The notes under the pieces: model-generated
The model's input: only the letters and a program-made list of their open reading frames with translations
Databases searched by the model: none
What the model was told of the DNA's origin: nothing
Position numbers and translations under genes: made by a program
Shown here: in pieces, positions 34,496 through 60,552 of the stretch
How the letters are laid out: each line of letters begins with the position of its first letter
Numbering within the stretch: position 1 is the stretch's first letter
NCBI GenBank assembly: GCA_014706385.1
Contig: JACGZH010000007.1
Span: 1,515,820-1,579,819, forward strand
Direction: 5' to 3'
Length of the DNA: 64,000 bases
Source of the DNA: Phaffia rhodozyma
Taxonomy: Eukaryota > Basidiomycota > Tremellomycetes > Cystofilobasidiales > Mrakiaceae

Positions 34496-34817
34496 ACTGT
34501 TTGTTGTTCAGCATGTATTTCTCTTCAGGCTGTTGCATGATCTACCTCAACACTCCCAACAAGATAATTTTTGCATTATAAAAAAATAACATTGCCGCAC
34601 TCTTCTCGTTTTGTTTCGATCGTATATATCGATGTCCCTGCTTTAAGAAGACCTATCTTCTGATTAGCGTTAACGGCACTGATCCGAGTTCCTGACATAA
34701 ATCGACAATAATATCCAACTTGCTAAATCCTGCTTCCTTGAATCAATTCAGTTCTGAGAACAGTATGAAGTCATGAGACGATGATAGAGTAAAAAAAGAG
34801 AAGAAAAAGAAAAAGTT

Positions 34818-34911
34818 GATGAAGACGAGATTCGAACTCGCGCCACGAATGACTGCGAAACACGGTCGATAAACCTGAACACAGCGCCTTAGACCACTCG
34901 GCCACTTCACC
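34818..34911 (-). tRNA. tRNA-Leu(CAG), outside the array
   Basis: The acceptor stem is GGTGAAG with CTTCATC and discriminator A. A class II variable arm and the T-arm loop TTCGAAT are present. The anticodon CAG is at 34875-34877, and a 14-nt intron follows position 37 (34860-34873). It closely resembles the Leu(UAG) gene of the array, whose units lack Leu(CAG). Confidence 0.9.
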
Positions 34912-35484: not shown

Positions 35485-37069
35485 ATGACTTCTTTTACTC
35501 ACACCACCACCCGCATGGCTGCAGTTCAGGCTGAGCCCGTGAGTTAATAGACCGCTCGGTAGATGTTGCGATTAATGTGCCTGACTGCGTTCCATTCCTT
35601 CATCTAATTATTTAGGTCTGGGGCGACCTTCAGGGATCTGTTCGTAAGACGGTTGCCCTCATTGAAGAGGCAGCATCCAAGGGCATCAAAGTTCTCGTCT
35701 TCCCCGAACTCTGGCTGCCTGGATATCCGTTCTGAATCTGGTTCCTTGCTCCTTCCCTGTGGGGTGACTTGTGGAAAAACTACCTTGCAAACGGCCTCAA
35801 GACAGACTCCGAAGAGATGAACACGATCCGACGAGCGTGTGCTGCGAACGACATCTGGGTGAGTAATGATTAGTCCACTCTGGACCTTACTTATATAATC
35901 ATTGACACCTTCGGAATACATAACAACCATTTCTACAGGTCCTTGTCGGTTATGCCGAGAAGAAGGGTTCAAGCATGTGGATGTCAACGAGCTGGATCAA
36001 CAACCAGGTAAGCTTCCGTGTGTTGCCCTCTGTTGTCCTATCGATCATCTTTCTAACTCTGCTTTCTCGCCTATTCATCTACTTATCTTCACTTGTCTCT
36101 GCTGGTCTCTCATGACTTCCTCTTTTCAGGGCGAGGTCGTCGGTCATCGACGCAAACTGCAGCCCACGGGTGTCGAGCGTGTCATCTTTGGCAATGCTTC
36201 GGGCGATACGGTCAACAATGTCATTGAATCTCCCTTCGGTCGTTTAGGTTCACTGCAGTGCTGGTGAGTCGTCTACTGATTAGCTGCCTATCGATAATTT
36301 TCAAGCTAAGCTAGAGTTTAATTGCACGCAACAGGGAGCATGCTCAGCCGCTACTGAAGTACCACACGGCCTCTCTCCGTATGTACAGACTTCTTCTTTG
36401 TTAGCCGAACTGCAGTAAATTGATTTCTCTTAATCTACACACACAGATGAGCAAATCCACGCTGCATCATGGCCATGTCTCTTTCCACACATGGGCCCAG
36501 AGCATTCTGGCATGTCGAAGGAGGGAACACTTGCTTTGAATCAAGCATATAGCATGGAGACTGGCGCCTTCTCGCTTGTTGCAACCTGTGTAATGACAGA
36601 GGCAGGAGCCAAGTCGATGGGTTTTACACCTGAGATGTTGGCGGTCTCGTTTCTTGCCTTGCCGGGTGGAGGTGCCAGTCGTATCATTGGACCGGACGGA
36701 AGAGTGCTTGCAGGAGCGGACCTGCCTGGTGATACTGAGACCCTTCTCACTTACGACATCGATCTGGCTGAGATCGAGGTTGCAAAGCAGCTCATGGACT
36801 GTGTAGGACACTATTCTCGACCGGATGTGTTCCGGTAAGTCGCACTGATCATTCTCTATTCTTTGTGATTGTCTGCTGATTCTGACTCTGCATATTGTAG
36901 ACTTCAAGTTGCCAACCAACACAATGCGCCGGTCCACTATCATTCTATCAATTCAAAGAATCTTCCCTTGCCGGCTCCGATTCAGGGGTTTCCAACTCTC
37001 GTTCAGAAGTCCTCCACTGAGAGTTCATTCGACTTGGTCGATGCAACTAGCTTGATGGCTGACGCATAA
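35485..37069 (+). pseudogene. Nitrilase-family gene with in-frame TGA
   Basis: Nitrilases hydrolyse nitriles to acids and ammonia with a Glu-Lys-Cys triad. The frame starts MTSFTHTTTRMAAVQAEP at 35485. All three triad blocks are present: FPELWLPGYP near 35700 (Glu), GHRRKLQPTG near 36150 (Lys) and LQCWEH, joined across the intron after 36263 (Cys). Later exons read GPEHSGMSKEGTLALNQAYS and SRIIGPDGRVLAGADLPG, and the gene ends at 37067-37069. Directly after GYPF the codon at 35733-35735 is TGA, where relatives have Trp (TGG), and the frame stays open on both sides (IWFLAPSLWGDLWKNYL). It is a one-base nonsense change, a sequencing error, or a programmed readthrough. All else looks intact, so loss would be recent. 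About five introns. Confidence 0.8.
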
Positions 37070-37307
37070 TCTGGGTACTATTCCTTCCTCACTCTATTTT
37101 GTGCTTTTCTTGTTGTAGTTTGATGTATGTACGGATTTCTTAATCACCAAAGCCATGCATACTACAGGCAGATTGCAACATAGACACTGGATTAAATAAA
37201 ATATGAATAGGGAAGATCGACGGTCATCTCGAACTGATGCCCACGCCTCGCGAGGAAACAACAGTAAAAAATGAACAAAAGAGAATGGACAAAAGAGAGT
37301 AATAAAG

Positions 37308-37379
37308 TGGACCCAGCAGGGATTGAACCCGCGGCCTTTCGCATGCAAAGCGAATGTGATACCACTACACCATAAGCCC
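37308..37379 (-). tRNA. tRNA-Ala(TGC), unit 1
   Basis: The acceptor GGGCTTA pairs with TGGGTCC. The anticodon arm is TTCGC-TTTGCAT-GCGAA, and the T loop is TTCAATC. There is no intron. Confidence 0.93.
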
Positions 37380-37568
37380 GTGTGGGATGGAGGCGTGGTG
37401 TGTCGGCCGGTGGGGCGAAGTGCGGTGCGGTGCGGTGAGGTGCGGTGCGGTGAGGTGCGGTAAGGTGCGGTGCGGTGAGGTGCGGCGAGGTGAGGTCTGG
37501 TATGATGCTATCAGAAACAGAGTCTTGGTTGCAAAACCACACGGAATCTCTCGGCGGGGGGCAAAAGA

Positions 37569-37650
37569 TGAACAGAGGGGGATTCGAACCCCCGCATCTT
37601 GCGATATCAGAACTTGAGTCTGACGCCTTAGACCGCTCGGCCATCTGTCC
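37569..37650 (-). tRNA. tRNA-Leu(CAA), unit 1
   Basis: This is a class II tRNA with acceptor GGACAGA/TCTGTTC. The anticodon arm TCAGA-CTCAAGT-TCTGA has no intron, and a long variable arm follows. Confidence 0.93.
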
Positions 37651-37739
37651 GGATGGGGTGCGTGAGGTGTGTGTGGGTGCGGGAGTGTGCGGGAGTGTGG
37701 GCCGGGTAGAGCGAGTGCACCCTGCCCGGGCACACACAC

Positions 37740-37825
37740 GCCCCGTTGGCAGAATGGTAACGCGTCTCCTTCCTACTGTCTGGTGAGAGAGGTGAAGATT
37801 CTGGGTTCAATCCCCAGGCGGGGTT
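37740..37825 (+). tRNA. tRNA-Arg(CCT), unit 1
   Basis: The 5' part closely follows the fungal Arg(CCU) pattern (GTTGGCAGAATGGTAACGCG). The anticodon is at 37772-37774, with an intron of about 14 nt at 37776-37789. The lower anticodon stem has one T-T mismatch. Confidence 0.82.
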
Positions 37826-38057
37826 TCTCTTTTTTTGCGGCGGGCGTGGTTGGGGTGTGGTTGGGGCGTGGTTGGGGTGTGAGTGGGGCGTGGTTGGGGT
37901 GTGAGTGGGGTGTGAGTGGGGTGTGAGTGAGAATGTGAGTGAGAAGGTGGGTGAGAATGTGGGTGTACACGTGAGACGCTTGGTATGCTGGCGGGCTGTA
38001 GAGTGTGGACTGTATGCGCAGGGTATAGGACTGATGTATGTGGACCCTCCCATCAAC

Positions 38058-38129
38058 GGGATGTTCGTATAATGGTTATTATTCCAGATTTCCATTCTGG
38101 AGACAGGTGTTCGATTCACCTACATCTCA
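38058..38129 (+). tRNA. tRNA-Gly(TCC), unit 1
   Basis: The acceptor is GGGATGT/ACATCTC, the anticodon arm CCAGA-TTTCCAT-TCTGG and the T loop TTCGATT. There is no intron, and a T-run follows. Confidence 0.93.
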
Positions 38130-38296
38130 TTTTTGTCATTTTTTTTTGTGCGCGTGGCGGGGGCGGAGGCGGTGGCAGTACAAGACACTGTGCGGACGGC
38201 GGCAAGACTCTGAGGCACACGACCGGGGCGTGGGAGGGGCTAGTTGGGTGGCGGCGTTGGTGTCTAGGGGTACGGGCCGGGCTGGGGACTATAACC

Positions 38297-38390
38297 GCCC
38301 TGTTAGCTCAATCGGTAGAGCGTCAGACTCTTACCCAGTCTCTTGACAGTTGGCATCTGAAGGCTGGGGGTTCGACCCCCCCATGGGGCT
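38297..38390 (+). tRNA. tRNA-Lys(CTT), unit 1
   Basis: The acceptor is GCCCTGT/ATGGGGC. The anticodon CTT at 38330-38332 sits in stem TCAGA/TCTGA, and a 21-nt intron lies at 38334-38354. Confidence 0.92.
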
Positions 38391-38608
38391 AGCTTCGTTT
38401 TTGTGTGTCGGTGTGATTTTTTGTTTCTGTTTCTGTTTCTGTTTTCGTTCTTTGTGTTTTTGTTTGCTGGCTTGGTGTGCGCTTGGTGGGCCGTCGACGG
38501 TGGAAGGGTGCATGGAGGGTTGAACAGAGGTGAGAGGTGGGTCGGCTGGTGGGTCGCGCGGGCATGTCTGACGATCTGGGCTGGTAGCACGGACAGACAG
38601 ACACACAC

Positions 38609-38681
38609 GGGGATTTAGCTCAGTTGGCAGAGCGCAATCTTAGCATGGTTGAGGTCGTGAGTTCGATTCTTACAATCTCCA
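38609..38681 (+). tRNA. tRNA-Ala(AGC), unit 1
   Basis: The acceptor is GGGGATT/AATCTCC, and the anticodon arm CAATC-TTAGCAT-GGTTG has no intron. A T6 terminator follows at once. Confidence 0.92.
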
Positions 38682-38897
38682 CTTTTTTGTGTCGTTTTTG
38701 TGTGTTTTTTTGTGTTTTTTGGTAGTCTTTTTTTTTTTTTTTTTTTCCGCCCGCTGCCTTTTTTGCACTCTCTTCTTTCGCTCTGCTCCTCTCGGTCATG
38801 CTCCGTCCTGCCCACCACATCACACACCATGTGTTGCACCGAGACAGGCCGGCTGCTGCGAGCACACTGGCCGACCGGCCGGACAGGCCTTCATCCA

Positions 38898-38990
38898 GGT
38901 GAGGTGGCCGAGTGGTCTAAGGCGCTGTGTTAAGGCTCTTTCTATGCCCCGCAGTCAGTAATGGCGCGAGTTCGAATCTCGCCCTCATCA
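38898..38990 (+). tRNA. tRNA-Leu(AAG), unit 1
   Basis: This class II tRNA has acceptor GGTGAGG/CCTCATC. The anticodon AAG is at 38932-38934, and a 13-nt intron lies at 38936-38948. Confidence 0.92.
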
Positions 38991-39161
38991 CTTTTTGTCC
39001 GGCCGGCACGGGCCGTGCCTCTCGGGTCTGCCTGGCCGGGCTGTGCTCTCAGGTGCGGTGCCATGGTAGTATGATGCCACGTTGCAACACTGCCACACCC
39101 CCTTGCTGTCTGCCGGTCCGTTTTGGACTGTGGACTGAATGAACAGACCGTACAGCATCCA

Positions 39162-39232
39162 ACAGCTGTGGTGAAATGGTATCATTGGTGCTTGCCATGC
39201 ACTAGGCCGGGGTTCGATTCCCCGCGGTTGTA
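39162..39232 (+). tRNA. tRNA-Gly(GCC), unit 1
   Basis: The anticodon arm is GGTGC-TTGCCAT-GCACT and the T arm CGGGG-TTCGATT-CCCCG. The acceptor pairs as ACAGCTG/CGGTTGT, with several wobble pairs. There is no intron. Confidence 0.88.
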
Positions 39233-39423
39233 TCCTTTTTTTTTCTCGTCCCACACACCGATCGGCTCTGTGCTGGCGGGTGCACATCTGCCGATCGTCC
39301 GTGTTCGGTCTCGCCGGCTGGTGCGATGATGGTGTGTGCTGCCGTTCGGACGAGCAGTGCGTCTGTGCCGACACAGGGGCAGGACACGAAGGACGTACCG
39401 ACGCGCTCGGTGGACACCAACCG

Positions 39424-39496
39424 TCCTTCTTAGCTCAGTTGGTAGAGCGCGACACTAGTAATGTCGAGGTCAGTCGTTCAAATCGGCTAGCAGGAA
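39424..39496 (+). tRNA. tRNA-Thr(AGT), unit 1
   Basis: The anticodon arm is CGACA-CTAGTAA-TGTCG and the D arm TAGCTCAGTTGGTAGAGC. The acceptor TCCTTCT/AGCAGGA has one T-C mismatch. There is no intron. Confidence 0.88.
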
Positions 39497-39695
39497 CATT
39501 CTTCTTTTTTTTTATTCTCCGTTCATTTCCGTTCATTTCTTCTTCTTCTTTTTCTGTTGTATCCTTCCCTGTCGCCCCGGCGGGCGTCTGGTCGACGCGT
39601 GCTCGTTAGGGTTCCGCACAAAGCACAGCACCACACCACACCACACACCACAAACGACACCACAAACAACACCACAAACGCAGGGAAAGCATGCT

Positions 39696-39794
39696 GGTGA
39701 AGTGGCCGAGTGGTCTAAGGCGCTGTGTTTAGGTCTCTCTTCCGAGTCCAGACCGCAGTCAGTAATGGCGCGAGTTCAAATCTCGTCTTCATCA
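39696..39794 (+). tRNA. tRNA-Leu(TAG), unit 1
   Basis: This class II tRNA has acceptor GGTGAAG/CTTCATC. The anticodon TAG is at 39730-39732, and a 19-nt intron lies at 39734-39752. Confidence 0.92.
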
Positions 39795-39828
39795 TTCCTT
39801 TTGTCCCGGCCGGGGGGGCAGGGCAGCT

Positions 39829-39910
39829 GGGGATTTAGGCTAGTTGGTAAACTGGACGCTTCGCACTGTCGATCATGTGTCATTCCTGGGTTCGATTCCC
39901 GGAGTCTCCA
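39829..39910 (+). tRNA. tRNA-Ala(CGC), unit 1
   Basis: The acceptor GGGGATT/AGTCTCC resembles the Ala(AGC) gene. The anticodon CGC at 39862-39864 sits in stem GACGC/GTGTC, and a 10-nt intron lies at 39866-39875. The D stem pairs imperfectly. Confidence 0.82.
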
Positions 39911-40067
39911 TCTCTTTTTGGTGTGTTTCGGTGTGTTTTGTTTTATCTTGGCGTATTTGATTTCGTTGCATTTCATATGGCATGTTGTGTGTCGTGTTCT
40001 GTGTGTCTTCTCTTGGTCTGCTGCCCACCGGCTTGTGCTCACCGCTCACCGAGCGGCGTCCATCCAA

Positions 40068-40177
40068 GGCCGTTTGGCGGAGTGGTCTAACGCGGTAGCC
40101 TCGAACGAGTCCCCTCTGTGGGACGACGCGACAGCTACTCTTCTCTGAAGGCGTAGGTTCAAATCCTACAGCGGTCG
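40068..40177 (+). tRNA. tRNA-Ser(CGA), unit 1
   Basis: This class II tRNA has acceptor GGCCGTT/AGCGGTC and discriminator G. The anticodon CGA is at 40102-40104, and a 27-nt intron lies at 40106-40132. Confidence 0.92.
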
Positions 40178-40319
40178 TCCTTTCTCTTTTTCTTTTTGCC
40201 CACTTCCGTTCTCTCTGCCTTCTGTCGCGTCGATCCTTCCTTGCTGTCTGTGTTTGCTGTCTCCGCATGCTCACACCCCGCCAGGCAGAGAGACAGACGG
40301 GCTGACGGGCTGCCATCGT

Positions 40320-40413
40320 GCGTGATTGGTGTAGTGGTATCACGCCAAGTTTGGGCACACTTTCTGCCGTGCACATCTCTTGGAGGTCTTCGGTTCAATC
40401 CCGGAATCGCGCC
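40320..40413 (+). tRNA. tRNA-Pro(TGG), unit 1
   Basis: The acceptor is GCGTGAT/ATCGCGC with discriminator C. The anticodon stem is CCAAG/CTTGG with TGG at 40352-40354, and a 22-nt intron lies at 40356-40377. Confidence 0.92.
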
Positions 40414-40546
40414 TTTTTGTTCGGCCCGTCTGGGCGGGTGGCGTGGTCGGTGTAGGGTTACTTGCTGTGTCAGTTGCTGTGTTACTTGCTGTGCTACTCA
40501 TAGGATTACCCGCCACATAGCGTCCGCTGTTACCCTATGCTGTGTA

Positions 40547-40769
40547 CTCTTTTTTTTTTTCTTTTTTCTTTTTCCTCTCCCGTTTTTTCTTTGTCCTTTT
40601 TCTTTCCTCTTTTTTCCTCTTTTTTCCTTCTTTTTTCCCTTCTTTTTCCCCCTCTTTTTTCCCCTCTTTTCCCTTCTTTTCCCTCTTTTCCTTTTTTCTT
40701 CTTCTTTTTCTTTCTTTTTCTTCTTTCTTTTCTTTTCTTCTTTTTTCTTCTTTTTCTTCTTTTTTTTCT
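40547..40769 (+). repeat. Polypyrimidine tract of unit 1
   Basis: Over 223 nt the plus strand has only T and C, built of T-runs split by C, CC or CCC. It lies between the long plus-strand tRNA block and the permuted tRNA-Arg gene. Such mirror-rich tracts can form triplex DNA. Confidence 0.9.
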
Positions 40770-40953
40770 GTCAACGATAGATGCATCAATATAGAAAGAG
40801 AAAAAGACATATGGCAGAAAGACAACAGCATAACAATGGCAACACAGTAAAAACATAGCGAGAACACAACGAGAACACAACCATGCAATGCAATGCACCA
40901 GCAACACAGTGTCAACACAACAGAAAGACCAAAACAAAAGAAGGCAAAGATCC

Positions 40954-41050
40954 TCGTAGTCAGACGCCTTACCGCTGGGCCACTCGGCCAGAGCGAATGG
41001 GTGGTGGGACCACTAGACCAAGACGGGGTTCGAACCCGCGATTTCCTGAT
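40954..41050 (-). tRNA. Circularly permuted tRNA-Arg(ACG), unit 1
   Basis: On the minus strand the 3' half comes first. It spans 41050 to 41015 and reads A38, stem TCAGG, variable AAATC, T arm GCGGG-TTCGAAC-CCCGT, acceptor CTTGGTC and discriminator T. A 25-nt linker follows (41014-40990). Then comes the 5' half, 40989 to 40954: acceptor GGCCGAG, TG, D arm GCC-CAGCGGTAA-GGC, G26, stem TCTGA, and loop bases C, T, anticodon ACG (40955-40957) and A37. The halves pair fully as one cloverleaf and give loop CTACGAA, the same as yeast Arg(ACG). No 3' half follows the 5' half, and no 5' half precedes the 3' half. An 11-bp inverted repeat (40941-40951 and 41090-41100) brackets the gene and could form the helix needed for splicing and circularisation. 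Its expression is inferred. Confidence 0.88.
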
Positions 41051-41283
41051 GCATACAAGCTGGCAGCCGGCCATGACGACCGTTCCACCATCTTTGCCTT
41101 TAGCTTTCGTCTGGTTGTGTGGATGTATGGCCAAGTGGATGTGTGGGCGTTGGCTCTGCTAGGGTTATCCGAGGCGGTGGGCGTCCGGCCGATCCGTCCG
41201 ATCGCCCATCGGATATCGGACGTCGGACGTCGGACGTCGAGCCCCGGAGTACGGAGCCCGGCGGAGAAAAGGCCGTGTCGATC

Positions 41284-41367
41284 GGTCGCCTGGTCTAGTG
41301 GTATGACGCTTGCTTCACATCTCACCCGGTGCGCAATAGGTCGCCAGTTCGATCCTGGCGGTGACCA
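41284..41367 (+). tRNA. tRNA-Val(CAC), unit 1
   Basis: The acceptor is GGTCGCC/GGTGACC and the T arm GCCAG-TTCGATC-CTGGC. The anticodon CAC is at 41316-41318, and an intron of about 12 nt lies at 41320-41331. The last anticodon-stem pair is C-T. Confidence 0.85.
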
Positions 41368-41587
41368 TGACGTCTTTTTGCCCTCAGCACACGGCCACGA
41401 TGGACAGACCGAGAGAAGCCATCGCAAGATAAGATGCATGATAAGATACACAGCCAGCCGACAGAGATGGCAGATAAGATCGACAGACACGATCGATCGG
41501 CAAGAAAGAAAGAAGATAAGATGGCGATAAAGACAAAAGACAAAAGACAAAAGATACAAGATAAAAGCCAGGTCGGCAAAAAGACAA

Positions 41588-41687
41588 GGCGCGATCCCGG
41601 GATTGAACCGAGGACCTCCGTCAGACACGTGTTTCATGCGAGCCAGCAAAGCCCGAAGACGGCGTGATACCACTACACCAATCCCGC
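41588..41687 (-). tRNA. tRNA-Pro(CGG), unit 1
   Basis: The anticodon stem is CCGTC/GACGG with CGG at 41653-41655, and a 28-nt intron lies at 41624-41651. The acceptor GCGGGAT/ATCGCGC has one G-G mismatch against its Pro(TGG) relative. Confidence 0.88.
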
Positions 41688-41765
41688 CAGTGATCGCACA
41701 GGCCTGGCCGGTCAGTTTGTCGGTCTCCAGCCGGCCGTCCGTCCGTCCGTCCGGGAGGCAAAAGA

Positions 41766-41863
41766 TACTCCATATGAGGTTCGAACTCATGATCCTTGTT
41801 AAGCACTAGAGGCACGGACGGCAACCTATAAGAACAATGCGATAACCACTTCGCCAATGGAGT
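41766..41863 (-). tRNA. tRNA-Ile(TAT), unit 1
   Basis: The acceptor ACTCCAT/ATGGAGT is perfect. The anticodon stem is TTGTT/AACAA with TAT at 41828-41830, and a 25-nt intron lies at 41802-41826. Confidence 0.92.
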
Positions 41864-42025
41864 AAAGGTAAGCGTCGGTGGAAAAAGACGAGACAGGACG
41901 AGACAGGACGAGACAGGACGAGAGAAGGCCGCACCGGACGGCACACGCCAGACCGGGCCGAGTCCGACAGAAGACGGCACAGGCGGCAGGAGGAAGGACG
42001 GGAAAAAGAGGGCAAAAAAAAGGAA

Positions 42026-42108
42026 AGGTCCTACTCAGATTCGAACTGGGGATTCGAGAAGGTGAGTCAATCAGAATCTCGCGTGATAACCAACTTCACC
42101 ATAGAACC
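42026..42108 (-). tRNA. tRNA-Gln(CTG), unit 1
   Basis: The acceptor is GGTTCTA/TAGGACC. The anticodon stem is CGAGA/TCTCG with CTG at 42072-42074, and a 10-nt intron lies at 42061-42070. The T stem has one mismatch. Confidence 0.88.
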
Positions 42109-42300
42109 GGTCGTTGTCGGCCTATTGCCCTCGCGAGTCTCGTTCCGGCGGTGTGTCCGCTGGCAAGGGTCCGTCGGCGCGTGTCCGCTGGCAGGTGTGC
42201 TTACATCGCTGGCCGACCTGTCCGCCCGCCGCACGTGGCCCGGCCGGCATGACACGCACGGCCGACCCGATACACACAGCGGACATCGGAGCAAAAAGCA

Positions 42301-42373
42301 AGCCCAAACGCGGATTTGAACCACGGACCTCACCGTTACGAGCGGCGCACTATAACCACTTAGCTATTCGGGC
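42301..42373 (-). tRNA. tRNA-Thr(CGT), unit 1
   Basis: The acceptor is GCCCGAA/TTTGGGC, and the anticodon arm CGCCG-CTCGTAA-CGGTG has no intron. Confidence 0.9.
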
Positions 42374-42524
42374 CTGGTGCCCGTCGCCCGGTCGTGTTGT
42401 CTCTAACGGTGTTGGTGTGTCGATGTGTTGGTGTACCGGTGTGGTCAGGACCCGGCCCACACCGTCCGCTCGGCCAGACGTAGCCCATCGAGGTCGACCG
42501 CCGGGGCGGCTGGGCAGTCAACGT

Positions 42525-42611
42525 GCCTGGGTAGTTTAGTGGTAAAACGTAGGTCTCATACCGTCACCCGAGTGTGATCCTCAGCCGCGAGTTCGATTCT
42601 CGCTCTGGGCA
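42525..42611 (+). tRNA. tRNA-Met(CAT), elongator, unit 1
   Basis: The acceptor is GCCTGGG/TCTGGGC, the D arm GTTT...AAAC and the T arm GCGAG-TTCGATT-CTCGC. The anticodon CAT is at 42557-42559, with an intron of roughly 20 nt after A37. The 3' side of the anticodon stem pairs poorly, so intron borders are uncertain. The other CAT gene of the unit is clearly the initiator. Confidence 0.75.
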
Positions 42612-42859
42612 ACCCTTTTTTTTCCTCTTTTGCTGTGTTTCCCATCCTTCCTGATGGTTGGTGGGCGGCCGGGCTGGGCCAGGCGGAGGTGCGGTCGGAT
42701 CCGGCCGTCAGATGGGCTGAGCATGACGGCAGTGGAAGTGGAAGTGGCGGCGGTGGCGGTGGCGGTGGCGTCGGCAGTGCTGATGACGACGACGACTGCT
42801 GCTGCGCAGAGTCCGCTTGGACGAGAATCTATCCGGACAAACGGTGCTGGCACCATACC

Positions 42860-42946
42860 CGCCGCTTAGCTCATCTGGAAGAGCGTTGGTTTGTAAAGGA
42901 TACACTTGTTCACCGAAGGCACTCGGTTCGATCCCGAGAGCGGCGA
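42860..42946 (+). tRNA. tRNA-Tyr(GTA), unit 1
   Basis: C1-G72 in acceptor CGCCGCT/AGCGGCG is the eukaryotic Tyr identity pair. The anticodon stem is TTGGT/ACCGA with GTA at 42893-42895, and a 14-nt intron lies at 42897-42910. Confidence 0.92.
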
Positions 42947-43168
42947 TCTTGTTTTTTTGCCTTTTGCTTTTTGTTCTTTTTTGTTCTTTTTTTTCTGCCT
43001 TGTGGCTGCTTCCTCTTTGACTGCTAGGGTTCCTGCCTTCGGTCCAGTCCGGTCGCTCTCACGCAGCATGCGCACTGTCTCGGCCAGACGGGCGATGCGA
43101 CCGATGACGTTCTCCCAGCTGCTGCTGCCGATGTAGTGGTCACCGGGGCAGGGCAAGCGATCATATCT

Positions 43169-43267
43169 GGCCGATTGGTGTAGTGGCTATCACAGCAGTT
43201 TTCGGTACTCGTCCGCAAGGTCGTCTTCGCTCGCTGCTGGTCGTCGGTTCGATCCCGACATCGGTCT
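43169..43267 (+). tRNA. tRNA-Arg(TCG), unit 1
   Basis: The acceptor GGCCGAT/ATCGGTC with discriminator T resembles the permuted Arg(ACG) gene. With A26 in place, the anticodon stem is GCAGT/GCTGC and the anticodon TCG at 43202-43204. A 26-nt intron lies at 43206-43231. Shifting the stem by one base would give TTC (Glu), but that leaves no position 26. Confidence 0.82.
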
Positions 43268-43488
43268 AAATGTTCACTTTTTGTGTCCCCCTTTCTTTGC
43301 CTCTTTTTGCCCTCCTTTTTGCCCTTCTTTTTCTCTGCACGCTCTCTCTGCACTCTGTTTCTATCGGCCGTTGTGTGGGTCACTGTCTGTCCGACCGGTC
43401 TGGCCTGTGTGCGCGTGTCCACCACGGTCGAGCCAGGTCGACACAGCTCCCTGTGGTGGGGCAGGCAGACGGGCGGGAAAACAAAAAA

Positions 43489-43562
43489 AGACCCATACCC
43501 GACTTGAACGGATGACCTCAAGATTTGGAATCTTGCGCTGCTACCAACTGAGCTAATGGGTC
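43489..43562 (-). tRNA. tRNA-Trp(CCA), unit 1
   Basis: The acceptor GACCCAT/ATGGGTC is perfect, and the anticodon arm CAAGA-TTCCAAA-TCTTG has no intron. Confidence 0.93.
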
Positions 43563-43719
43563 GCTTGCCCGGAGGCTCCGTGCCCAGAGGGTATGTCGAG
43601 CGCCCGGCTGGCTGGCCGTACAGACGGTGGCACCATGCGGCCGGCTTGCAGGCCTCCAGCACGGACGGCCGGACGGGGGCCAGGGAAAAAACCGAGGGAA
43701 AACGAGCAAAAAGACAATG

Positions 43720-43791
43720 TTGCCAAGGCCCGTCTCGATCAGGCGACCTCCGGGTTATGAGCCCGGCGCGCTTCCACTGCGCTACTTGGCA
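43720..43791 (-). tRNA. tRNA-Met(CAT), initiator, unit 1
   Basis: The D arm GCGCAGTGGAAGCGC, the GGG/CCC base of the anticodon stem (GCCGGG-CTCATAA-CCCGG) and the T loop GATCGAGAC are initiator traits. The acceptor is TGCCAAG/CTTGGCA. There is no intron. Confidence 0.93.
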
Positions 43792-43999
43792 TTGATGGGA
43801 GACCATGGCTGAGGAGTGTGTATGTGGTGTCGGCCGCAGGTCACGTGCCGGTGTCGATGTCAGTGTCGACGTCAGTGTCGATGCCAGTGCCAGCACCAGT
43901 GTCATTACCAATGCCAGTGTCAATGCCAGTCACACCATCGACTGGTGCGACCGACGGTACACCTGGCCATGGTCTGCCGGGTGGGCCTGACAGTCATCG

Positions 44000-44073
44000 G
44001 ATCGATTAGCTCAGTTGGTTAGAGCGTGGTGCTAATAACGCCAAGGTCGCGGGTTCGACCCCCTCATTGATCA
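44000..44073 (+). tRNA. tRNA-Ile(AAT), unit 1
   Basis: The acceptor is GATCGAT/ATTGATC, and the anticodon arm TGGTG-CTAATAA-CGCCA has no intron. A T5 run follows. Confidence 0.93.
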
Positions 44074-44329
44074 CTTTTTCTTTCTTTTTCTAATTTTCGC
44101 CATCTTTTTTTGCCATCTTTTTTGCACCCCTCCTGTTCTCGACCGTTGCGGTCTGTGTGGCATTGTTGTCGACTGGCACGCTCCATGGTGAGCGATGCAG
44201 TGTTGTGACGGTGTGACGATGTGGTGGTGCAGTGGCGACGATGGGAACGCAGATATACACCCGGCTGTGCTGGACAGTGTCCGACCAGACATGGGCCTAT
44301 GGTGTCTGGGCTGGGCTGGGAGGCATCGT

Positions 44330-44416
44330 GCATGCTTGGTGTAGTGGTATCGCGCCATGTTAGGGTCTTTGCGCCTTGTCTCATGGAGGTCCTCAGTTCA
44401 ATCCTGGGAGCGTGCC
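44330..44416 (+). tRNA. tRNA-Pro(AGG), unit 1
   Basis: The acceptor is GCATGCT/AGCGTGC with discriminator C. The anticodon stem is CCATG/CATGG with AGG at 44362-44364, and a 15-nt intron lies at 44366-44380. Confidence 0.92.
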
Positions 44417-44625
44417 TTTTTTCCTTTTCCTTTCGTTCTTTGTTTCCTTTTCCCGAGCGCTTCCTGTCGCTCTTCGTTGTTTTCTGCCACTTTTCACTCA
44501 CTTTTTGCCACTCTCCGCCACTTTCTCGGCAGCAGACAAGCGATGTGTGCACCCGGTGGAGACGTCTCTGACGCATGGACAAGCTGTCTGGACAAGGTGT
44601 CTGGACACGGATGACAGCCATCAAG

Positions 44626-44697
44626 TCCTCAATTGTCTAACGGCTATGATAACCGCCTCTCACGCGGTAGGCCCGGGTTCGACTCCCGGTTGGGGAT
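44626..44697 (+). tRNA. tRNA-Glu(CTC), unit 1
   Basis: The acceptor is TCCTCAA/TTGGGGA, and the anticodon arm ACCGC-CTCTCAC-GCGGT has no intron. Confidence 0.93.
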
Positions 44698-44927
44698 CTC
44701 TCTTTTGGTCTTTTCTTTTGCTCTCGTTTCTTTTTTTCTTTTTTTCCTTGTCCTTCTTTCCTTTCGTCTTTCTGTTTCGTCTTGTTTTTGTATGTCCGTT
44801 CTGACCACTGGTATCAGCGCTGGTGTGTGCCTGCGGGTACTGTGTGGTTGAATGCACGGTATGGGGTGCATGCACCGGCCAGCTGTCCAGCCACCTGGCG
44901 AGCGGACAAGGCTGACAACCAACCGAC

Positions 44928-44999
44928 TCTTGGATGGTCTAACGGTTATGATTTCCGCCTGTCACGCGGGAGACCGGGGTTCGACTCCCCGTCCGGGAG
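44928..44999 (+). tRNA. tRNA-Asp(GTC), unit 1
   Basis: The acceptor is TCTTGGA/TCCGGGA with discriminator G. The anticodon arm TCCGC-CTGTCAC-GCGGG has no intron. Confidence 0.93.
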
Positions 45000-45380
45000 C
45001 ACTTTTTGCCTTTTGCTCCTCTCTTTTGTACTTGCATTTGTACTTGCATTTGCATTTGCATTTGCATCTGCATTTGCATTTTTTCTTTCCATTCTCTTTT
45101 GCTGTACAGCTGTATGGTTGTCTTGCTTTGTTGTGTTTGTCCGTCGACGGCCATCGATCGTTATCTTTTTTTCTTTGGTCTGTATGTCTCCTTCTTTTTC
45201 TCTTTCTTTTTCTTTTGCTCTCTTTGACGGCGCATGTTTGGCAGCACACGCTCCGAAAGACGCACCGAGCACAGCACAGCACAGCACAGCACGCCGACAC
45301 GTGTGCGCTGGGCAGACCAACTGGCTGGATGGCTGTTGAGCACAGGCTATGGGCAGTCGATCGGCAGACCGAGACCATAC

Positions 45381-45463
45381 GCTGTCTTAATCAAGTGGTC
45401 TACGATGAGAGATTAGAAATCTCTTCCTCTTTGAGGGCGCAGGTTCGAATCCTGCAGACAGCT
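45381..45463 (+). tRNA. tRNA-Ser(AGA), unit 1
   Basis: This class II tRNA has the perfect acceptor GCTGTCT/AGACAGC. The anticodon arm AGAGA-TTAGAAA-TCTCT has no intron. Confidence 0.92.
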
Positions 45464-45686
45464 TTCTTTTGCACCCTGTACTTTGCCACCGTGGCCTTTG
45501 CTCTTTTTGCTTTTTTTTTTCTTCTTCTTCTCTTCTATGCCTTTGCCTATGTGTGTCTATGGTTGTCGTTCATGTATGCATAGTACGCACACACCGGGCA
45601 GCCAGCCCAAACAAAAAAAAAAGACGGCCACACCATCGAAGCCATCCTCACTGACACACAGAGCGAGGACCGGAAAAAAAAAGGGA

Positions 45687-45772
45687 TGCCGTCAGCCTGA
45701 ATCGAACAGGCGACCTTATGATTGCGGACAGATGTCTTCAGTCATACGCTCCACCAATTGAGCTATGACGGC
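45687..45772 (-). tRNA. tRNA-Phe(GAA), unit 1
   Basis: The acceptor GCCGTCA/TGACGGC is perfect. The anticodon stem is TATGA/TCATA with GAA at 45737-45739, and a 13-nt intron lies at 45723-45735. Confidence 0.93.
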
Positions 45773-45967
45773 CGATGACAGTCAGCGCCGTCCATCAGGC
45801 CATGGCCCGTCTGGGTGGCTGTCGGGCCGTCGGGCCGTCCGGCTGGCACTCACTCGGTCGGTCTCAGCCGGGTCGGTGTGTGTGCTGACGCGGCAGGCAA
45901 AACATGCTGGGCACTGACCGTCAGCGTGTGCTGTCTGAGTGCTCGGACACAGCAGGCGACCATCCCA

Positions 45968-46040
45968 TGCCCTGTAGCTCAGTTGGTAGAGCGTGGAGCT
46001 GTTAACTCCAAGGTCTACGGTTCGAGCCCGTACGGGGCAG
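45968..46040 (+). tRNA. tRNA-Asn(GTT), unit 1
   Basis: The acceptor is TGCCCTG/CGGGGCA, and the anticodon arm TGGAG-CTGTTAA-CTCCA has no intron. Confidence 0.93.
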
Positions 46041-46225
46041 TCTTTTTGTCGTCTTTTTGTCGTCTTTTTGTCGTCTTTTTGTCTCCTCATTTTTTTTCCC
46101 TCTCCCTTTCCTGTGCAGTACTTCCCCTCTCGTCTTCTGCCGTCCATGAGGTGTGCGTGTTCTTGGTATGTTCTTGCGATGGACATCATCCATCTTCCAC
46201 CAGCATGCTCGGCCGGCAAGAAAAA

Positions 46226-46298
46226 AGGAGTCACCCGGGATTGAACCAGGGACCTGCTGGGTTGCAACCAGCCGCAACTACCGCTGTGCTATAACTCC
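46226..46298 (-). tRNA. tRNA-Cys(GCA), unit 1
   Basis: The acceptor is GGAGTTA/TGACTCC with discriminator T. The anticodon arm GCTGG-TTGCAAC-CCAGC has no intron. Confidence 0.92.
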
Positions 46299-46469
46299 GT
46301 ATGAGGCTGCCGCGCCATCGGACAGATCATCCACAGGCACGCTTGCACACATGCACACAGCACAGTGGCAGCCGCTTTGTCGTCCTGCGATCGAGTAGTG
46401 GCAGCTGTGGACGCAACATCGCCCGGTGCGACCAGGCCGGCGTCACAGATGCTGCATCTGCACAGAGAA

Positions 46470-46579
46470 AACAAAAGGAACAAAGGAGCAGAAAAAAGAA
46501 CAGGAAAAAAGAGCAAGAAAAAAGAGCAAGAAAAAAGAGCAAGAAAAAAGAGCAAAAAGAACAAAAAGAACAAAAAGAG
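46470..46579 (+). repeat. Purine-rich AAAAAGAGCAAG minisatellite, unit 1
   Basis: Tandem A-runs split by GAGC or GAAC lie just downstream of tRNA-Val(AAC). Read on that gene's strand they are T-runs and would also serve as Pol III terminators. The other two units keep them. Confidence 0.7.
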
Positions 46580-46651
46580 TAGTCGCACCCAGAGTCGAAC
46601 TGGGGTCGTGAGTGTGTTAGACTCAAGTGATAACCGTTACACCATGCAACT
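46580..46651 (-). tRNA. tRNA-Val(AAC), unit 1
   Basis: The acceptor is AGTTGCA/TGCGACT, and the anticodon arm TGAGT-CTAACAC-ACTCA has no intron. Confidence 0.92.
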
Positions 46652-46842
46652 CTGATGACTGCCGGTCTCTGCCCAGTATCCTACTCATCGACCAGGCACC
46701 GCTCGCTCCGCCGTCTGCCCGCCCGCCGCTGTGTGTCCATCGGTCGGCCGGCCCATCAGCCCGATCGTGCGACACCGGGACCATGCCTGCCGACAAGCTG
46801 GCCCTCAGACGAGGCAGCCCGGGGAGAAAACAAAAAGGATCG

Positions 46843-46915
46843 TTCCCCATCCGGGAGTCGAACCCGGGTCCTCAGCGTGAAAAGCTGATATCGTAAACCG
46901 TTTGACCAATGAGGA
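46843..46915 (-). tRNA. tRNA-Glu(TTC), unit 1
   Basis: The acceptor TCCTCAT/ATGGGGA is shared with Glu(CTC). The anticodon arm TCAGC-TTTTCAC-GCTGA has no intron. Confidence 0.92.
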
Positions 46916-47055
46916 CTAGTACAAGCACGCCGAATCGGTCGAGTCGTCTGCAGTCGTCTGCAGTCGTGCGCAGTCGTGTGCAGCCTGCTCCGTCGTGCGG
47001 TAGGCTGTGAGCGGGTGGCCGCCGGTCAGCATGCTTCCGACCGGACGGCAAAAAG

Positions 47056-50700: not shown

Positions 50701-50797
50701 TCGTAGTCAGACGCCTTACCGCTGGGCCACTCGGCCAGAGCGAATGGGTGGTGGGACCACTAGACCAAGACGGGGTTCGAACCCGCGATTTCCTGAT
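50701..50797 (-). tRNA. Circularly permuted tRNA-Arg(ACG), unit 2
   Basis: The 3' half is at 50797-50762, the linker at 50761-50737 and the 5' half at 50736-50701. The bracketing inverted repeat lies at 50688-50698 and 50837-50847. Both halves match unit 1. Confidence 0.88.
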
Positions 50798-58164: not shown

Positions 58165-58374
58165 CTTTTTGTGTCGTTTTTATGTGTTTTTTTGTGTTTT
58201 TTGGTAGTCTTTTTTTTTTTTTCCGCCCGCTGCCTTTTTTGCACTCTCTTCTTTCGCTCTGCTCCTCTCGGTCATGCTCCGTCCTGCCCACCACATCACA
58301 CACCATGTGTTGCAACCGAGACAGGCCGGCTGCTGCGAGCACACTGGCCGACCGGCCGGACAGGCCTTCATCCA

Positions 58375-60455: not shown

Positions 60456-60552
60456 TCGTAGTCAGACGCCTTACCGCTGGGCCACTCGGCCAGAGCGAAT
60501 GGGTGGTGGGACCACTAGACCAAGACGGGGTTCGAACCCGCGATTTCCTGAT
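60456..60552 (-). tRNA. Circularly permuted tRNA-Arg(ACG), unit 3
   Basis: The 3' half is at 60552-60517, the linker at 60516-60492 and the 5' half at 60491-60456. The inverted repeat lies at 60443-60453 and 60592-60602. Both halves match units 1 and 2. Confidence 0.88.

Follow-up and report, generated by a model that had tools for sequence, protein, structure and literature searches.

Can a tRNA gene whose 3′ half is encoded upstream of its 5′ half serve as a working gene in a fungus? The question is raised by a short minus-strand locus in Phaffia rhodozyma, a yeast used for making the pink pigment astaxanthin, that lies within a window of 64,000 nt (contig JACGZH010000007.1 of assembly GCA_014706385.1, positions 1,515,820 to 1,579,819), the whole stretch of DNA analysed here. 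The sequence leads us, with considerable confidence, to answer yes: the locus very probably represents a functional type II (37/38) permuted nuclear gene for tRNA-Arg(ACG) that is present in at least 43 array copies and is apparently the sole source of tRNA-Arg(ACG/ICG).

The layout of the locus is confirmed. The minus strand encodes first the 3′ half (41050-41015), then a linker of 25 nt, then the 5′ half (40989-40954), and our re-reading of the sequence bears out the coordinates, order, strand and linker length given in the original prediction. Although reversed in order, the two halves lie on one strand and together make a full cloverleaf in the ARAGORN drawing. When they are joined in tRNA order, ARAGORN calls the resulting 72-mer as tRNA-Arg(acg) with all four stems: an acceptor stem of 7 bp (two G-U), a D stem of 3 bp, an anticodon stem of 5 bp (one G-U) and a T stem of 5 bp (one G-U). 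The pairing of all rejoined arms had been claimed from the letters alone, and a failure of the joined sequence to score as a tRNA had been named as fatal to the idea; the arms pair and the sequence scores. In circular mode the program adds an overlapping wrapped call for the joined 72-mer, and with CCA appended it returns a single call. The anticodon loop, CTACGAA, is presumably that of yeast Arg(ACG). The junction falls at 37/38 of this loop; a cut one base later also leaves a 7-nt ACG loop, and a junction at 38/39 may be an alternative. By eye, position 73 is U in Arg(CCT), Arg(TCG), Arg(TCT) and the joined Arg(ACG), a weak mark of arginine identity because several other tRNAs of the array carry U73 too.

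Table 1. Features of the permuted locus and of the tandem unit that contains it (window coordinates).
Feature	Position	Strand	Remark
3′ half of tRNA-Arg(ACG), positions 38-73, unit 1	41015..41050	-	RF00005 positions 37-71
Linker, 25 nt, position 73 joined to position 1	40990..41014	-	Without TTTT
5′ half of tRNA-Arg(ACG), positions 1-37, unit 1	40954..40989	-	RF00005 positions 1-36
Leader strand of 11-bp leader/trailer helix	41090..41100	-	Watson-Crick run of 11
Trailer strand of 11-bp helix	40941..40951	-	Perfect complement of leader strand
A-box-like motif (TRGYNNARNGG) in leader, proposed displaced A box	41080..41090	-	
B box, T arm of 3′ half	41025..41035	-	
A-box sequence, D arm of 5′ half, downstream of B box (reversed order)	40972..40982	-	
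T4, proposed pol III terminator, 14 nt past 5′ half	40936..40939	-	One base beyond helix
Tandem unit, ~9.75 kb	37307..47054	.	33 tRNA genes called by ARAGORN, 16 of them with introns by our reading, and the permuted gene
Permuted Arg(ACG), unit 2	50701..50797	-	Identical to unit 1 over 231 bp
Permuted Arg(ACG), unit 3	60456..60552	-	Identical to unit 1 over 231 bp
Arg(CCT)	37740-37825		Stem pairing, by eye
Arg(TCG)	43169-43267		Stem pairing, by eye
Phe(GAA)	45687-45772		Stem pairing, by eye
Tyr(GTA)	42860-42946		Stem pairing, by eye
Val(CAC)	41284-41367		Stem pairing, by eye
Ala(CGC)	39828-39912		Stem pairing, by eye

Scans with tRNA models agree with this reading. Scanned apart against the Rfam tRNA model RF00005, the 5′ half gives a 3′-truncated match to model positions 1-36 (14.9 bits; E 0.26, not significant alone) and the 3′ half a 5′-truncated match to positions 37-71 (19.8 bits; E 0.011), such that the two tile the model with neither gap nor overlap. 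Their summed score of 34.7 bits, which excludes the bridging acceptor and anticodon stems, exceeds the RF00005 cut-off of 29. A search for permuted tRNA genes, proposed along with the original prediction, was run within the window as a doubling scan, in which each stretch of sequence is doubled and ARAGORN must find a tRNA with an intron at positions 36-39 that spans the doubling point. In 36801-47000, at three stretch sizes, the permuted Arg(ACG) is the sole locus that passes this filter; nothing passes in window positions 1-36800 at the same three sizes or in five shuffled units at one stretch size. Unfiltered, the scan returns 35, 33 and 40 rows, mostly ordinary genes that straddle the doubling point together with a few odd calls, and the odd calls are absent after the junction filter. 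The claim that neither half has a partner in the normal order also held: in 38001-44000, with introns of up to 3000 nt permitted, no ARAGORN call in normal order overlaps the locus, and within that range it is not an ordinary intron-containing tRNA gene.

The locus is part of a tandem array of ~9.75-kb units that spans position 37307 to the end of the window. Residues 1-500 of one ORF of the window agree at 100% identity, over 98%, with a P. rhodozyma protein, in line with the fungal, basidiomycete host named for the gene. The permuted gene occurs at least 43 times in the assembly (19.77 Mb in 15 contigs), spread over nine contigs; the count comprises 42 exact 5′ halves and one that has lost a single base. 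All 43 known copies have the 3′ half first, as established by paired halves for 40 and by a whole-region match for three. In a separate comparison over 231 bp, 35 of 40 scored copies are identical. The arrays occupy contigs C4-C7 and the ends of C9-C13, and each unit holds about 34 tRNA genes; with its permuted gene counted at least 43 times, the assembly probably contains well over a thousand tRNA genes. The available part of PMC5103461 gives 49 tRNAs with 12 anticodons for a short-read P. rhodozyma genome, a low count that may reflect the collapse of arrays in a short-read assembly and the invisibility of a permuted gene to a normal-order search. Several intron-containing array genes are misnamed by ARAGORN under one or another setting, and their identities were read by eye from stem pairing. 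The elongator Met gene has, by eye, a 16-nt intron in its array copy (42524-42614) and none in a dispersed copy (L050, C9:1200417). Just outside the array, at window positions 34817-34911, there is one intron-containing Leu(CAG) gene.

Under the usual rules of eukaryotic decoding CGU and CGC are read only by an ICG tRNA, and whether the permuted gene works turns in large part on whether an ordinary Arg(ACG) gene exists elsewhere. Were there one, the permuted copies could be a dead rearrangement spread by array amplification while the ordinary gene does the work, an explanation that we consider improbable but place first among the rivals. The original prediction had likewise named a set of normal-order Arg(ACG) genes as the finding that would undo it. 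We searched the whole genome with two patterns. The first, which runs from the A box through a CTACGR or TTACGR loop and is indifferent to introns at 37/38, has 44 matches (17 for the reversed control), of which 42 are permuted copies and two are not tRNA-like by eye. The second, from an ACG loop to the B box and suited to intronless genes, has 18 matches against 24 for the reversed control, and none of the 18 is an Arg gene (three inspected, 15 judged by eye); of the three inspected, the match at C2:1345437 falls on the end of an intron in a Lys(TTT) gene, and ARAGORN calls no tRNA at the other two. As a positive control we put TCT for ACG in the first pattern, which then picks up all eight Arg(TCT) genes among the Rfam-search loci, plus 10 further matches. 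With GCG it has no match in the whole genome (12 for the control), which leaves Arg(GCG) without a candidate gene by this pattern. A third pattern, YTACGRN{17,47}GTTCRANNC (178 matches; 133 for the reversed control), was dropped, as its spacing starts above the intronless range. A genome-wide Rfam census covered only 63 of its 2082 candidates; the case against an ordinary Arg(ACG) gene therefore rests on the two patterns, which such a gene could escape if it were very odd. Contigs that end inside the arrays set a further limit on genome-wide claims of absence and leave the dead-rearrangement explanation some room; the lack of an ordinary gene by two patterns in the 19.8-Mb assembly, with a control that recovers eight of eight, speaks against it.

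Codon usage points in the same direction. In the available part of PMC4404019, the RSCU values in ribosomal ORFs are 0.30 for CGU and 0.25 for CGC, rising to 0.51 and 0.29 once the set is extended by the most highly expressed ORFs; it counts against the argument that the favoured Arg codon in both sets is CGA (2.83 and 2.10, respectively) rather than CGU or CGC. Because CGU and CGC are present even in ribosomal-protein genes, the permuted gene probably has to work, and since we find no other gene that would read these codons it is probably essential.

Variation among the copies is less telling. We compared 31 of the at least 43 copies, three from the window and 28 from elsewhere. Over the 72 mature positions there are no substitutions and one gap cell, and two copies have a single-base insertion each. 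Copy L060, which is misaligned at indels, accounts for every nominal substitution in leader and linker, and small deletions in the trailer or T run occur in three of the 31 copies. L060 itself (C13:1395300-1396700) carries small indels in the leader, 3′ half and linker and has an intact 5′ half; the indels may be sequencing errors or mark a decaying copy. The absence of changes in the halves fits selection without proving it and is suggestive at best. We rejected cross-copy conservation as proof of function, given that three spacer stretches too vary at only 47 of 532 positions, some of these perhaps through misalignment. Array copies are homogenised, which makes their sameness weak evidence, and homogenisation could equally keep a useless piece near-identical from unit to unit, as the dead-rearrangement explanation would have it. 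The preservation of both halves in units 2 and 3, noted in the original prediction, thus stands, and extends to identity over 231 bp, but the argument for function that was drawn from it loses most of its force. What the dead-rearrangement explanation accommodates less easily is that every stem is intact, with no substitution in the halves of 31 copies.

The splice junction provides a point in favor of a dead piece, in that the usual pair between position 32 and the third-last base before the 3′ exon is missing: in the permuted gene position 32 and the third-last leader base are C and U, which do not pair. Among the 16 introns of the unit, this position holds a pyrimidine-purine pair in 15 by our reading, with Ala(CGC) as the exception, and in 13 by the first parse of our script; the reading of 15 uses a second script parse for Arg(TCG) and sets the elongator Met by comparison with the intronless dispersed copy. 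As alternatives, C32 may pair with the second-last leader base, or the cut may fall one base on, giving the loop CUACGAG. Predicted folds also give a mixed picture of the (relaxed) bulge-helix-bulge that leader and trailer of a type II gene would form at the junction. When the precursor is arranged in tRNA order, its most stable predicted fold retains the anticodon stem and an 11-bp helix between leader and trailer, together with a 6-bp helix of the anticodon loop with the leader end, but not the other arms of the cloverleaf. None of the unconstrained minimum-energy folds, whether of the precursor, the rotated form or the joined 72-mer, is a full cloverleaf; such folds are common for unmodified tRNA sequences.

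The 11-bp helix supports the permuted reading. A Watson-Crick run of this length between leader and trailer is reached by one of 5000 dinucleotide shuffles of the leader, and at 1724 window positions of like geometry runs of 11 occur twice, at the gene itself and near 58276. The helix stands off from the junction, by 2 nt on one side and 39 nt on the other. Just beyond it lies the T4 that we propose as the terminator; there is no T4 between 41110 and 40940, linker included, and in all 33 other tRNA genes of the unit a T4 falls within 12 nt. A leader/trailer helix and a terminator so placed would have no evident reason in a dead piece, and it is these features, together with the intact stems and the missing ordinary gene, that lead us to prefer a functional permuted gene over a dead rearrangement. 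The possibility that the leader is a decayed 5′ half, left over from a tandem duplication, was rejected, because 1985 of 5000 shuffles, and likewise 910 of 2916 array 60-mers, align at least as well.

In the permuted order the A box of the D arm comes after the B box of the T arm, and the question arises of how a promoter could be assembled. The leader contains an A-box-like sequence, TGGTGGAACGG (41090-41080), 55 nt upstream of the B box (41035), which could restore the A-then-B order despite the swapped halves. We offer this as a suggestion only, because outside the array the window has the motif at a background of about 0.007 per 50 nt, and unit spacers, by our count, at about 0.01. Further A-box-like strings are found at 41020, 40990 and 40982, the first of which (41020-41010) extends from the 3′ half into the linker. 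No TATA is present within 60 nt upstream of 41100. A start-site motif in common with the other array tRNA genes was considered and dropped, as the CATC-like string seen by eye beside many of them is not at a matching distance here.

These same elements could be taken to point to a split tRNA, each half being transcribed separately before the two pair and are ligated in trans. Archaeal split tRNAs have complementary leaders and trailers, as does this locus, and the A-box-like motifs at 41090, 41020 and 40990, besides that of the D arm, would offer more than one place to start. We nonetheless regard a split tRNA as quite unlikely, less so only than an artefact. The halves are 25 nt apart on one strand, the linker has no T4, and a T4 appears only after the 5′ half; moreover, the known route for such a layout, according to the available part of the review PMC3978253, is one transcript and a circular intermediate. 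An artefact of assembly or sequencing, to which the small indels in a few copies (many in single-base runs) might be attributed, has a negligible chance of accounting for at least 43 copies on nine contigs in the same order throughout, with the array on the window's own contig, C12, joined to single-copy Phaffia sequence.

Returning to a single-transcript permuted gene, we envision a scenario in which pol III, directed by the leader A box and the B box of the 3′ half in their usual order and spacing, would transcribe leader, 3′ half, linker, 5′ half and trailer and stop at the T4. The transcript ends would zip into the 11-bp helix, which would hold the open ends together and allow the tRNA body and anticodon arm to fold. 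The tRNA splicing endonuclease could then cut on both sides of the anticodon-loop junction, treating trailer plus leader like an intron, and ligase would close the RNA into a circle, from which RNase P and tRNase Z would excise the linker before CCA is added. Deamination of A34 to inosine would finally allow the tRNA to read CGU and CGC. We lean, with appreciable reservation, toward the broader model in which the fungus reads CGU and CGC only by way of a tRNA that passes through a circular RNA, and does so with ordinary yeast machinery: the displaced leader A box would serve TFIIIC, and the end-to-end helix would make of leader and trailer an intron that the endonuclease accepts. By this model permuted tRNAs would not be an oddity of algae and archaea but could arise anew wherever tRNA introns are common.

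The genome appears to contain parts of such machinery. Exons matching the catalytic tRNA splicing endonuclease family occur at two places and look, by eye, Sen2-like and Sen34-like; the Sen2-like match contains an in-frame stop that we take for an intron. An exon of the B-block subunit of TFIIIC is found once with the PF04182 profile, a match that is supportive only, because this profile also passes its cut-off in four of 14 control genomes. The fungus thus seems to keep TFIIIC, unlike Cyanidioschyzon merolae as described in the available part of PMC3978253.

P. rhodozyma is an industrial species and can be transformed. If our reading is correct, permuted tRNA genes extend to fungi, and to a species that allows the genetics of their promoter, splicing and ligation.

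The original prediction named permuted tRNA genes in red and green algae, nucleomorphs and one archaeon and knew of none in fungi. The part of PMC3978253 available to us agrees, listing 34 such genes from algae, a nucleomorph and one archaeon, with type II (37/38) genes in C. merolae and prasinophyte green algae (Soma 2007; Maruyama 2010); to these, the available part of a 2025 paper (PMC12636532) adds genes of the green alga Auxenochlorella. Among the titles and abstract openings listed from the open-licence literature we found neither a permuted tRNA gene in a fungus nor a description of these arrays, a scope that leaves absence from print unproven, and the available parts of PMC8450103, PMC6379350, PMC4033280, PMC5103461 and PMC12749792 contain no fungal case. 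A search of viral contigs for the permuted layout had no match. The Phaffia gene belongs to a kind already known from algae and one archaeon, in a kingdom where we found no earlier example, and stands out by its unusual copy number and by flanks that hint at how the transcript might be made and held together.

Its closest relatives in design are the algal type II genes. As represented in the available part of PMC3978253, these share with the Phaffia locus the upstream 3′ half, the 37/38 junction, a T stretch after the 5′ half, the lack of an encoded CCA and a leader and trailer that can base-pair close to the junction, and the Phaffia linker of 25 bp lies inside the reviewed range of 1-74. The differences are these: the host is a fungus; Arg(ACG) is absent from the 34 listed genes; the gene is repeated at least 43 times in tandem arrays; it lacks a TATA in the 60 nt upstream but has an A-box-like motif in its leader; and its 11-bp helix runs end to end and is set off from the junction. 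The Auxenochlorella genes (PMC12636532, available part) belong to an alga and likewise came to light through an incomplete tRNAscan-SE set. Nearer at hand, the ordinary intron-containing genes of the array are spliced at 37/38 as the permuted gene would be, but unlike it they have the normal order and, in 15 of 16 by our reading, the pair at position 32. The archaeon Thermofilum pendens, in the available part of PMC3978253, differs in its 59/60 junction, its linkers of 7 and 1 bp and its encoded CCA; like the Phaffia gene, however, its permuted tRNA is the single source of an anticodon and is for that reason presumed to be functional.
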